Shown in pieces: positions 22,876-26,829 of a stretch of 64,000 nt of DNA. Made by a program: the position numbers and the translations under genes. How positions within the stretch are numbered: the stretch's first letter is position 1; every line of letters starts with the position of its first letter. Origin of the DNA: Arcanobacterium phocisimile (GTDB lineage: Bacteria; Actinomycetota; Actinomycetes; Actinomycetales; Actinomycetaceae); the NCBI RefSeq assembly GCF_016904675.1, contig NZ_CP070228.1, forward strand, positions 1,860,001-1,924,000, given 5' to 3'. The notes beneath the pieces were generated by a model, which saw only the letters and a program-made list of their open reading frames with translations, had not been told where the DNA came from and made no database searches.

Positions 22876-22987
22876 CGCGATTGGCGGTAGGTGTGCATTT
22901 ATTTGGGGTTTAGTGAGAATCTGGAGGCCGCGGCGGCTGGGGTGGCTGGGGTGGTGCTATTTAGTCCGTTGTTTGCTCCATGCCCGG

Positions 22988-23020
22988 CCTCTACCCTGCC
23001 TCTACCCTGCCTCTACCCTG
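22988..23020 (+). repeat. Three tandem 11-bp repeats
   Basis: CCTCTACCCTG repeated three times, followed by a partial CCTCT, directly before palindromic repeat copy 1. Confidence 0.85.
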
Positions 23021-23033
23021 CCTCTTGTGCACT

Positions 23034-23108
23034 CAATCGGGGAATAGCGCAAACCTCGTCCATATACGCCGAGGTTTGCACTATAACCCCATTCACTGCA
23101 GTTACCGC
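23034..23108 (+). repeat. Interspersed palindromic repeat, copy 1
   Basis: About 75 bp able to fold into a long hairpin. The outer arms are GGGGAATAGCGCAAACCTCG and CGAGGTTTGCACTATAACCCC-type, the loop contains CCATATACG, and a conserved tail ATTCACTGCAGTTACCGC follows. Copies 2 and 3 lie at 24259 and 25617 in the same outer orientation. Confidence 0.88.
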
Positions 23109-23309
23109 TGAGTACCAAACCAACCAAGCGTCCGTTGGACCGCCCAACCGCCCGCCGAGCCACCTATCAAACCGACAAACCACCCACTAAACCGCCCGCA
23201 AGCCCGGAACTTCGCCAACATTTTCCACACCACCCCCATTTCCTCCGGATATCCACAGGAAATGAAAACCCCCATCCTCGGACACGGGACTTACCTCAGT
23301 ATTTATTCC

Positions 23310-24185
23310 ATGGAAAAACAACTCTTTCGCCGCTCCCAACTCCCCACGCCACTCGACACGAACCGCTACCAACTCCACATGGCACTCAGTCGCAAAGAAC
23401 TTGGACGACTCCATCACCACTGGTACGCCACGCCCAATGCTTCGAATTTAGAAATAACCGCGGCAACTCATGGATTTCTCATCGGGTGTTGCACAGCGGC
23501 CAACTTATGGGGACTGTGGATGCCTGACTCGAAAACCCCGCATTTCATTTGCCCACGGAATGCCCAGCGGGTCGAAAAGCGGGGAATGATTATCCATCGC
23601 GCACTCAATGGACACCGCCAGTTCGGAATACATCATCCACCAAGCAAAGCTCCTCATATCATTTGTTCTCTAGTGGAAGCAGTCGAGCAAGTCGTTCACT
23701 ATCACGACGCTGAAACCGGATTGATCATCCTCGAATCCGCATTGAACAAACAGAAAATCACCCTAGCTGCCGTTGATGAAATCATTAGCTACGCGCAAAA
23801 ACGCAAGCAACCAATCCTCAGGCGTCGCATCAGTACAGCACAATCTGGGAGCGAAACGCGAGTGCGAAGTTTCCTCCAATCTCTAGGTGTGCAAGTACAG
23901 CCTCAAGTATGGCTTGCGGGAGTTGGGCGGGTGGATCTGCTCGTCGGAAAGTCACTCATTATCGAATGTGATAGCACGGCCTTTCATAGTCATCCGTTGA
24001 ATGTCGTCGACGATCGGCGCCGAGATGCTCAGCAAACTCGCCTCGGATATAGCTTTCTGCGACTGAGCTATCACCAGGTTTGGGACGATTGGGAAAACAC
24101 ATGCAGCTACATTCGCGCAGTGCTGCATACCCGGAAGCATTTGAAGCCACCCCGGCCGCTGGTTGGTCGTTTTGATGTGCAGTAA
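23310..24185 (+). CDS. PDDEXK/DUF559-type nuclease-like protein
   Basis: 291-aa protein with two parts. The N-terminal half (HWYATPNAS...ATHGFLIGCCTAANLWGLW) resembles the winged-helix/AbiEi-like region of actinobacterial DUF559 proteins. The C-terminal half carries a Vsr-like PDDEXK core: SGSETRVRSFL (Glu), VGRVDLLVG (Asp), IIECDS (E-x-D) and DRRRDAQQTRLGYSFLRLSY. The ATG at 23310 is chosen because the upstream extension is low-complexity. Nuclease activity is predicted only. Such genes are common in actinobacteria with unproven roles, sometimes proposed in defence. Palindromic repeats flank it on both sides. Confidence 0.75.
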   Translation: MEKQLFRRSQLPTPLDTNRYQLHMALSRKELGRLHHHWYATPNASNLEITAATHGFLIGCCTAANLWGLWMPDSKTPHFICPRNAQRVEKRGMIIHRALNGHRQFGIHHPPSKAPHIICSLVEAVEQVVHYHDAETGLIILESALNKQKITLAAVDEIISYAQKRKQPILRRRISTAQSGSETRVRSFLQSLGVQVQPQVWLAGVGRVDLLVGKSLIIECDSTAFHSHPLNVVDDRRRDAQQTRLGYSFLRLSYHQVWDDWENTCSYIRAVLHTRKHLKPPRPLVGRFDVQ

Positions 24186-24264
24186 ATCGACGTGCAGTAA
24201 ATCGACGTGCAGTAAATCGACGTGCAGTGAACCGTTGCGCAGTGATTGATGTGCAGCAAATCGG
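24177..24264 (+). repeat. Tandem 15-bp repeats overlapping the DUF559 stop
   Basis: GTGCAGTAAATCGAC three times (24177-24221), followed by degenerate units beginning GTGCAGTGAACC, GCGCAGTGATTG and TGCAGCAAATCG that run into palindromic repeat copy 2. The first unit supplies the stop codon of the DUF559 gene. Confidence 0.88.
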
Positions 24265-24332
24265 GGAATAGCGCAAACCTCGTCCATATACGTCGAGGTT
24301 TGCGCTATAGCCACATTTACAGCAGTTATCGC
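24259..24332 (+). repeat. Interspersed palindromic repeat, copy 2
   Basis: Same 74-bp element as copy 1 with few changes; the loop reads CCATATACG. Its tail includes TTACAG (24317-24322), 17 nt before a TAAACT, so it may supply a -35 for the next gene. Confidence 0.86.
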
Positions 24333-24339
24333 CCGATGT

Positions 24340-24345
24340 TAAACT
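24340..24345 (+). promoter_or_regulatory. -10 element of leaderless promoter for the Trp-rich membrane protein
   Basis: TAAACT followed by 6 nt and then the ATG at 24352. A TTACAG -35 candidate 17 nt upstream lies inside palindromic repeat copy 2. Confidence 0.55.
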
Positions 24346-24351
24346 CGTTCC

Positions 24352-25629
24352 ATGCAGATTTGGACACTCGAACACCCCATACATGGACATTTCGAGATTG
24401 TCGAGGCTCCCGCAGTAGAAATGCGCAAGCTTGACCCGGAGTGGGACGCTGTGCCTGACGTATCGCCAGCCGATGAAACTAGCAACGAAGCTCTCGACTC
24501 TAAAAAAGGCATACCTGAAACTGGAGTAGCCACACCTGAAACAGGAACAGACATACCTGAAGTCGCCAAAGAAACATCCAACCCCAACAAAGAGACTGAA
24601 GATCAGCGCGTAGCCCTCAAAAATCTTGCTGACCGCTTCGAACGCTGGTCCAATCGTCTCCCGCGTCAGCTAAATCCCGTCAAGGAAAGATTATCTGAGT
24701 ACACAGAGCGGATCCGTTCAAACGTGGGAAATCAGGTGGCAATACGGCTCAATGGCCGCACGCTAGCGCGTTACTACCGCCCTCGTTCTGGCACTTGTGG
24801 GCTACGCGCCTTCCTTCTTGAAGGGGAAGCTTCAGCCGCTGATGGGCAGGCTCATTCTAATGATGGCCAAGCTCCCACAGACTCTGACACATCATCCTCA
24901 CCTTTCCCTGCACCTGGCGAATTCGCGCAACTAAGTCCGGCTCGGAAGCCTAAAATTACACTCGAGGCGTCACCTTTTGGTGACATTATTTCGGCATACT
25001 ATGTGGGCTCGGGGCAATCCACTAACAAGCCGGCCACCCGCAACCAATCGGCCGATGACATCTTCGAATTCACCGCCCCACCGAACAGCTATGCAGAGAA
25101 ACGACTGCGCATGCTGGAGTCGTCACCACTAAAGCGCCTTTTCCTTCCTATTCTCATTGGATTAAGCAAGGTGGGGTGGGCTTGGTTCGCCGTCTTATTC
25201 TTCCCAATTGTCAAAGCTGTTCTAGAACCAGTCTGGGATTCAGTGAAGTTGTACGTATCATGGTTGTTCTTTCCACTCGCGTGGTTGTGGACGAAGTTTT
25301 GGTGGCTGATTGGAAAGATCTGGTGGCCGATCGGGTGGCTGTTGCGGAAGATCTGGTGGCCAATTGGCTGGCTGCTTGACACGCTTGGTTCATTACTTAA
25401 ACCTCTCAAGGATGCCGTCGTGCAGTTTTTTGCGTGGCTTAGTTCATTCTTCCCGCCACTCCCCGATCTTCCTGACTGGCTGGCGTGGCTGGTTGGCCAT
25501 CCGAAGCTGTGGCTACCGGTGGTGACGGGAATTGCGTTTGGGATTCTTTCATTTATTCGTTATCGCCGGGCACGCAGGACCCGGAACAGCACCCAGCCAA
25601 ACCCAGAGCAGCAGCAAATCGGGGAATAG
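24352..25629 (+). CDS. Unrecognised membrane protein with Trp-rich repeats
   Basis: 425 aa, no family recognised. Residues 1-250 are polar and acidic, with short repeats around PETG (55-65), and look cytoplasmic or extended. Residues 255-405 hold several hydrophobic segments. Within these, a near-exact 11-aa repeat KIWWPIGWLL occurs at 322-331 and 333-342, preceded by a related KFWWLIGKIWW, so aromatic residues recur helically along the membrane. A basic tail RYRRARRTRN follows. The last codons and the TAG lie inside palindromic repeat copy 3. The start at 24352 is supported by a leaderless -10 element. Function unknown. Confidence 0.72.
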   Translation: MQIWTLEHPIHGHFEIVEAPAVEMRKLDPEWDAVPDVSPADETSNEALDSKKGIPETGVATPETGTDIPEVAKETSNPNKETEDQRVALKNLADRFERWSNRLPRQLNPVKERLSEYTERIRSNVGNQVAIRLNGRTLARYYRPRSGTCGLRAFLLEGEASAADGQAHSNDGQAPTDSDTSSSPFPAPGEFAQLSPARKPKITLEASPFGDIISAYYVGSGQSTNKPATRNQSADDIFEFTAPPNSYAEKRLRMLESSPLKRLFLPILIGLSKVGWAWFAVLFFPIVKAVLEPVWDSVKLYVSWLFFPLAWLWTKFWWLIGKIWWPIGWLLRKIWWPIGWLLDTLGSLLKPLKDAVVQFFAWLSSFFPPLPDLPDWLAWLVGHPKLWLPVVTGIAFGILSFIRYRRARRTRNSTQPNPEQQQIGE

Positions 25630-25690
25630 CGCAAACTGCGACGTATATGGGCGAGGTTTGCACTATAACCCCATTCACTGCAGATACCGC
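25617..25690 (+). repeat. Interspersed palindromic repeat, copy 3 (inverted loop)
   Basis: Outer arms and the ATTCACTGCAG tail have the same orientation as copies 1 and 2. The loop reads CGTATATGG, the reverse complement of CCATATACG. The 29-nt hairpin core matches the reverse complement of copy 2 at 26 positions. It supplies the 3' end of the preceding gene. Confidence 0.85.
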
Positions 25691-25755: not shown

Positions 25756-26829
25756 GTGAATATTTTCTTAGTTGCACTCGTGCTGGTTTCGCTGATTGGT
25801 CTGCGGATATATGCGCGTCCCGACGTTGATTCCTATATTTCGCATGCTCACACGACGCAGATTAATGGTGTATTTATTTTGATCGTGTTTTATGCCCATG
25901 TGCGCACCTATATTCCGTTGGCTCCGGCGGCGGATGGCTGGATGTACGGGTTGGCGACGGGCCTGGGCCAGCTGATGGTCGCTCTATTTTTGTTTTATTC
26001 GGGCTTTGGGGTGCAAGAGTCAATTAAGCGCAAGCCGGGATATGTTGCTTCTATTCCGGTGAAGCGCCTGGCCGTGACGTGGGTGAATTTTGCGGTTGCG
26101 GTGAGTGCGTATGCAGTGTTGTCGTTGGTGACCGATCGTGACATTTCGGTTTCGCAGTTTGTGTTGGCATTGTCTGGTTGGACGAGTGTTGGTAATTCGG
26201 CGTGGTATATTTTTGCGATTTTGGTGTTGTATGGGTTGACGTTTGTGGTTCATCGGCTCTTAGGTGATGTTGCGCGCCTACGTCCAAGCCTCGCGGTGAC
26301 GGCGATGTTTGCTGCCGGCTTGCTGTTTGGCGCGTTGATGTTGTGGGCGAAGGGCGCGAGCGCGGCGTATACATTTAACACGGTGTTGTGTTATCCGTTG
26401 GGGATGGCGTGGTCGGTTTTCCGCGCTCCGGTGGAAGCTCGGTTACGTGGTCCACGTGGCCGGTTGTGGTGGCTGGTTTTTCTGGTGTCGACGACGGCGA
26501 TCTTTGTTGCGTTGAAGAGTGTTGCGGGTGTGCACTATTTGGTGTTCCAGTTGGCGGCGTTGGCGTATTGTGCGGTGGCGGTGTTGGTGTCGATGGTGGT
26601 TCATTTTGATAGCCCGATTTTGGCGTGGTGTGGCCGGAATCTGTTTTGGATCTATGTGTTGCAACGGTTGCCGATGTTGACGTTGACGTATTTTGGGTTT
26701 GCCGATAGTTACCGGTATTGGTTTGTGGTGGTGTCGTTTGCGGTTACTGTTGCACTGACGGTTGTTTTCTCACGCTTAATGGCGCCGGTTCAACGGAAAA
26801 TCATCGCAGCATTCCAACCACCACGGTAG
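25756..26829 (+). CDS. Acyltransferase 3 (OafA-like) family membrane protein
   Basis: 357-aa polytopic protein with about ten TM segments. The opening segment HTTQINGVFILIVFYAHVRTYI, with a His in the first long helix, and the later NSAWYIFAILVLYGLTF match the acyltransferase-3 fold used to O-acylate cell-surface glycans. The canonical R-x10-H motif is not clean, so activity is uncertain. It starts with GTG behind a leaderless -10. Codons are T/G-ending, unlike the preceding accessory genes. The region upstream ends in palindromic repeat copy 3. Target polymer unknown. Confidence 0.72.
   Translation: MNIFLVALVLVSLIGLRIYARPDVDSYISHAHTTQINGVFILIVFYAHVRTYIPLAPAADGWMYGLATGLGQLMVALFLFYSGFGVQESIKRKPGYVASIPVKRLAVTWVNFAVAVSAYAVLSLVTDRDISVSQFVLALSGWTSVGNSAWYIFAILVLYGLTFVVHRLLGDVARLRPSLAVTAMFAAGLLFGALMLWAKGASAAYTFNTVLCYPLGMAWSVFRAPVEARLRGPRGRLWWLVFLVSTTAIFVALKSVAGVHYLVFQLAALAYCAVAVLVSMVVHFDSPILAWCGRNLFWIYVLQRLPMLTLTYFGFADSYRYWFVVVSFAVTVALTVVFSRLMAPVQRKIIAAFQPPR

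Follow-up and report, generated by a model that had tools for sequence, protein, structure and literature searches.

A dispersed palindrome family with inverting centres brackets an EDxHD nuclease gene in Arcanobacterium

Introduction

Three copies of a long palindrome lie close together in the genome of Arcanobacterium phocisimile, and in one of them the centre reads in the opposite direction to the other two. The locus raises three questions: what kind of repeat this is, how its centre came to be inverted, and whether it belongs with any of the genes that it separates. We followed the palindrome from a 64,000-nt stretch of contig NZ_CP070228.1 (positions 1,860,001 to 1,924,000; "the window") through the genus and into other actinobacteria. 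The gene enclosed by the first two copies encodes a nuclease of the MTES_1575/DUF559 type. Such genes are common in actinobacterial genomes, and we know of no function assigned to them.

Results

The three palindromes are all described on the forward strand. Copy 1 (23026-23108; core arms 23043-23058 and 23070-23085; centre 23059-23069, TCCATATACGC) lies between the divergently oriented def and nuclease genes. Copy 2 (24250-24332; core arms 24267-24282 and 24294-24309; centre 24283-24293, TCCATATACGT) is located directly 3' of the nuclease gene, and copy 3 (25608-25690; core arms 25625-25640 and 25652-25667; centre 25641-25651, ACGTATATGGG) overlaps the stop codon of an open reading frame of 425 codons (24352-25629, plus strand) that lies between copies 2 and 3 and has no Pfam match. 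Each copy, about 75 nt long, consists of an outer arm (TGCAGTAAATCGGGG), an inner arm (AATAGCGCAAACCTCG), an 11-nt centre and the reverse complements of the arms, and the arm pairs are near-perfect. Within the three sites the palindromes themselves are placed at 23028-23100, 24252-24324 and 25610-25682. The first-pass annotation had reported three repeat copies here, each separating adjacent genes, and we recovered palindromes at all three sites in that arrangement.

Two short tandem repeats adjoin these elements. A 15-nt unit, GACGTGCAGTAAATC, identical to the palindrome's outer arm (TGCAGTAAATCG), occurs in about four tandem copies at 24174-24233, just ahead of copy 2, and an 11-nt unit, CCTCTACCCTG, is repeated at 22983-23025, just ahead of copy 1. 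The 425-aa product carries tryptophan-rich repeats towards its C-terminus, and the presence of its gene between palindromes varies among related species.

As single strands, copies 1, 2 and 3 gave folding z-scores of -5.4, -6.6 and -3.9, respectively, and none of the shuffled sequences folded equally well. An Rfam scan of the window returned tRNAs only. We looked for a T-tract terminator at the three copies and found none, which speaks against intrinsic terminators.

The inner 21 nt of copies 1 and 2 match at 20 of 21 positions when read directly. Copy 3, on the other hand, matches copy 2 at 18 positions as the reverse complement and at 10 directly, and copy 1 at 17 and 10, which confirms the earlier suggestion that its centre is inverted. 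The same annotation held that the outer flanks had kept their orientation. Since one arm is almost exactly the reverse complement of the other, only the adjoining sequence and the few arm positions that break the symmetry bear on this claim.

To place the repeat in a wider context we compared Arcanobacterium genomes, one per species, labelled here by G-numbers (G000, G002, G004-G008). The A. phocisimile genome (1.99 Mb, one contig) has the palindrome family at 19 places (best E 1.2e-37), far above chance. Three of eight congeners possess homologous families (G004, G005 and G007, with 16, 11 and 18 candidate copies, respectively, at first look); the search found none in the remaining five congeners, nor in 30 genomes sampled more widely from the family and the order. 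Contigs assigned to A. phocae have this family. Low-scoring "elements" from a relaxed arm scan that coincided with coding sequence were removed by hand. A core of 16+11+16 nt is constant throughout, and the elements are intergenic, lying between divergent, tandem and convergent genes alike. Single arms outside paired elements occurred only at chance level, so the palindromes are not the termini of some longer insertion sequence. In viral contigs the 16-nt arm had ten isolated matches, and the paired-arm pattern outside Arcanobacterium was limited to single palindromes in unrelated bacteria.

Copy 1 has orthologues at the same place in G004, G005 and G007, and at the position of copy 3 there is no element in G004 and G007. 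G005 lacks the 425-aa ORF and has one element left between the nuclease gene and the ORF at 25756-26829, which is the pattern expected from recombination between flanking copies. The empty-site search yielded one decayed remnant and no clean empty site. At a separate locus the elements at G000 472944 and G007 49788 have the same flanks and are identical in core and outer arms although neighbouring copies differ, which suggests a recent transfer.

We then asked whether centre inversion is peculiar to copy 3. We treated elements as orthologous when the sequence on either side of them matched between two species, and their centres were compared in the orientation of the flanks. Among 43 such pairs from four congeneric species the centre had the same orientation in 26, the opposite orientation in 11 and an ambiguous one in 6. 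The inverted pairs derive from about five independent orthologous loci, copy 1 among them, and since orientations oppose between species at each, centre inversion is recurrent. The clearest case is G004 67488/G007 806657 compared with G005 1706017 (20/21 inverted, 9/21 direct); others are G000/G007 compared with G005 560180, and G004 170257 compared with G005 1442277. Overall, the best cases match at 20/21 or 19/21 positions inverted versus 8-13 directly. The centre of copy 1 in A. phocisimile is inverted relative to both G005 and G007. The orthologues of copy 2 have opposite centres in G004 and G007, and an arm variant private to these two genomes (ATCAAG/CTTGAT) lies on opposite sides.

These data support the proposal, made for copy 3 in the first-pass annotation, of inversion at the stem. 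They also bear out its expectation that both orientations should occur at one locus, as a difference between species, in a sample of one genome per species. Its suggestion of a recombinase did not hold up in the same way. We found no evidence for a dedicated enzyme, and as the sole cause of inversion one is not needed: in plastids the centre of a hairpin flips between inverted arms as a by-product of the palindrome and without a recombinase (PMC2903610), so template switching or cruciform processing would suffice. In both settings relatives differ in the orientation of a centre enclosed by inverted arms, but the Arcanobacterium elements form a bacterial repeat family tied to a nuclease gene. 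Because 4.5% of non-orthologous element pairs also match at ≥19/21, replacement of a whole element by another copy (conversion) may account for some loci.

The gene bracketed by copies 1 and 2 (23262-24185, plus strand) encodes 307 aa, probably with its conserved start at 23310. It is the palindromes' most probable partner, which the first-pass annotation had missed while reading the inversion correctly. The protein matches PF18741 above the cut-off (E 1.1e-10), and a profile built from its homologues matches the structures 3hrl (DUF559) and 3r3p (I-Bth0305I), the latter with E 4.5e-4 across the catalytic domain. Of 45 intact homologues, 44-45 retain residues E198, D225, H242 and D251. By profile and by catalytic residues, then, its sequence places it in the EDxHD (Vsr-like) superfamily, MTES_1575/DUF559 type. 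At the N-terminus, three of 11 homologues match AbiEi_4, and AbiEi_3_N matches are also present. A single-sequence structure model had a mean pLDDT of 33 and was unusable. Several homologues from the Actinomycetaceae have one in-frame stop codon within the matched region, which suggests gene decay in many lineages.

In G004, G005 and G007 the nuclease gene is likewise bracketed by the palindrome family of copies 1-3. G008, the closest congener by Def identity (91%), is without this family; its nuclease orthologue (56% identical) instead has an unrelated 75-nt palindrome on either side, in two copies that are 93% identical. This palindrome is dispersed over about 33 places in G008 and has only two distant occurrences elsewhere in the genus. 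No clear target duplication was found in G008, where the highest z over about 190 combinations of offset and length was 4.0. Roughly half of the palindromes in G008 are embedded in a longer unit that is itself repeated (left ctgaaatgtcgg..tttgcctgtt, right gcacaactta..cgaggc); the palindrome may therefore also travel within a larger element. G006 retains only a fragment of the nuclease gene at this locus and has neither the A. phocisimile nor the G008 palindrome family.

Other nuclease paralogues of the genus have palindromes of their own on one or both sides. Two such families are dispersed in G006 (16 and 13 places among the matches listed) and one in G007 (9 places; the family is present in G007, G004 and G005). 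In G002 a nuclease-adjacent palindrome occurs at 39 or more places (40 of 116 candidates were scored) with 95-98% identity, and this likeness suggests recent spread. At a second, apparently orthologous nuclease locus (G006 264625, G007 248771) the adjoining palindromes are wholly different in sequence. The palindrome families are specific to lineages, and because every paralogue has its own, our first test, which compared the A. phocisimile palindrome with any MTES_1575 domain, showed no association. We set aside a simple association of that kind; testing the flanks paralogue by paralogue resolved the matter.

We extended the flank test to nuclease homologues from 151 genomes of Actinomycetaceae (29 usable loci), with an unrelated 260-aa gene from the same genomes as matched control. 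Copies of a locus's own palindrome were present on both sides at 16 of 29 nuclease loci and at none of 29 control loci (Fisher p=1.7e-6), while about 45% of nuclease loci had no detectable repeat pair. At class level flanking repeats were found at 8/28 nuclease loci compared to 0/29 controls (p=0.002). A palindrome of ≥45 nt lay within 500 nt at 19/30 (Actinomycetaceae) and 20/28 (class) nuclease loci, compared to 4/30 controls. The arrangement of gene and palindromes also occurs in other actinobacterial families, and most nuclease-adjacent palindromes are dispersed, including families in other genera. These p-values are indicative only, since the genomes share ancestry and the loci are not fully independent. 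As the association was found after inspecting nuclease flanks, the matched control and the loci outside the genus are the main guard against hindsight.

The palindromes, mostly unrelated in sequence, also share a centre. ATATA/TATAT occurs in the central 16 nt of 12/16 Actinomycetaceae palindromes compared to 3.1% of windows from the same flanks (p ~1e-15). At class level only 3/20 have it, so it is a trait of a subset. Palindrome similarity follows nuclease identity only where the latter exceeds about 60% (over 105 non-independent pairs, Spearman 0.35), as would be expected under rapid turnover.

Discussion

The layout described above recalls the REP/REPIN palindromes and RAYT enzymes ("REPtrons"), which likewise comprise dispersed intergenic palindromes in lineage-specific families (PMC3116915, PMC8266576), with copies adjoining the gene of a cognate DNA-cutting enzyme, as we infer for Arcanobacterium. 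REPs are proposed to have a selfish origin in palindromes that flanked an autonomous element (PMC3116915, PMC8266576). However, REPs are 20-50 nt long, follow a tetranucleotide (mostly GTAG) and use an HUH Y1 transposase, whereas the Arcanobacterium palindrome measures 65-80 nt, is AT-rich in its middle and has a Vsr-like EDxHD nuclease as its putative enzyme. The Y1 transposase TnpA-REP (PF01797) was found in none of the nine Arcanobacterium genomes (the control set matched in 5/14), and neither GTAG nor any other constant tetranucleotide precedes the arms across the 19 copies. On these grounds, and given the length of about 75 nt, we reject membership of REP/RAYT. That the palindromes flank the gene of a cognate enzyme is shared in layout only, as the enzyme differs.

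Two further systems resemble the putative enzyme. I-Bth0305I is an EDxHD homing endonuclease that binds its target, nearly 60 bp long, as a dimer (PMC3943268); the catalytic residue pattern is common to both, and a long target bound as a dimer is what we propose for the Arcanobacterium protein. I-Bth0305I is, however, encoded in a phage intron whose insertion disrupts the target, whereas the Arcanobacterium gene is free-standing, its product has an AbiEi-like N-terminus, and intact candidate targets lie on both sides and genome-wide. AbiEi binds a 49-nt palindrome (23+3+23) beside its own gene and represses its own promoter (PMC3985639). It shares with our protein an N-terminal winged helix (AbiEi_4 in 3/11 homologues) and a palindrome beside the gene (~50 nt for AbiEi), but in Arcanobacterium a nuclease replaces the C-terminal antitoxin domain, no AbiEii toxin partner was seen, and the palindromes are two-sided and dispersed.

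We lean, though not strongly, towards the view that the nuclease whose gene lies between copies 1 and 2 recognises the palindromes as its cognate sites, and that its cutting or nicking maintains and spreads them. The protein would join an AbiEi-like winged-helix N-terminus to a Vsr-like EDxHD nuclease. A dimer would bind both arms of a 65-80 nt palindrome, which is plausible for such a fusion by analogy with the I-Bth0305I dimer target and the AbiEi palindrome, and would bring both nuclease domains to the AT-rich middle (ATATA/TATAT), where the DNA would be cut or nicked as a duplex, cruciform or hairpin. As such breaks were repaired from other copies, the family would spread, undergo conversion and become more uniform, and hairpin processing would occasionally flip a centre, as in copy 3. 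The nuclease would retain two copies beside its own gene, resembling an autonomous element with palindromic ends, of which solo copies elsewhere would be non-autonomous derivatives. Palindrome binding and cleavage, mobility and selfishness would all follow from this model. Several points count against it. Cleavage at 19-40 intact sites in the chromosome would do harm unless the activity were nicking, structure-specific or restrained. At two loci the nuclease-adjacent position is conserved and the palindrome sequence is completely different. Finally, the share of loci with no repeat pair and the lack of a clean empty site or target duplication do not favour the model.

The main rival is that the AbiEi-like winged-helix protein represses its own gene through the flanking palindromes, the dispersed copies being a regulon or decoys. 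In that case the nuclease domain would serve another purpose, e.g. defence, and the palindromes would not be nuclease-mobilised. The precedent of AbiEi (PMC3985639), the AbiEi_4 or AbiEi_3_N matches in the homologues and the position of copy 1 upstream of the nuclease gene, in the intergenic region shared with the divergent def gene, are all consistent with this. We nevertheless consider it rather unlikely, as copies also lie 3' of the nuclease and other genes and in all gene orientations, operators are usually far shorter than 75 nt, one family gives way entirely to another between closely related species, and the near-identical copies in G002 look like recent proliferation.

It is less probable still that an ordinary MITE- or REP-type repeat, moved by another transposase, finds a favoured or protected landing site at the nuclease locus. 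Length, intergenic position, dispersal and the chance-level frequency of partnerless arms would suit such a repeat, but the nine Arcanobacterium genomes have no Y1/RAYT transposase, target duplication was not detected in G008, and in several genera unrelated palindromes are coupled to the nuclease in the same way. Least probable of all is a role as RNA hairpins, bidirectional terminators or the like, unlinked to the nuclease and with centre inversion as a neutral by-product of template switching. The strong predicted hairpins and the well-known inversion of hairpin loops without a recombinase (PMC2903610) speak for this; the missing T-tract (0/3 copies) and the placement between divergent, tandem and convergent genes speak against it, and it leaves unexplained the control-tested flanking association and the shared ATATA centre.

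In the open-access literature, which our search covered, we found no description of a nuclease-palindrome pairing of this type, and the layout gives the impression of a selfish DNA of a kind not described before. A more general proposal, which we advance tentatively and with somewhat less assurance than the nuclease model itself, is that free-standing wHTH-EDxHD nucleases form a new selfish-DNA class across actinobacteria: they would propagate long ATATA-centred palindromes by recognition and cutting, with two copies bracketing the gene and with rapid joint turnover of nuclease specificity and palindrome. A sceptic could file the system under the REP/RAYT way of life, as it appears to work in the same manner, yet it departs from REP/RAYT in two of the defining tests. 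Long, variable, nuclease-specific recognition sites could be of use as rare-cutting tools, and the recurrent inversion of the centres would offer a natural record of hairpin processing. If the palindromes are the targets, an orphan nuclease family would gain a substrate and an orphan repeat family an enzyme, and the two could be tested jointly. In that case the REP/RAYT way of life would have been invented twice, independently and with unrelated enzymes.
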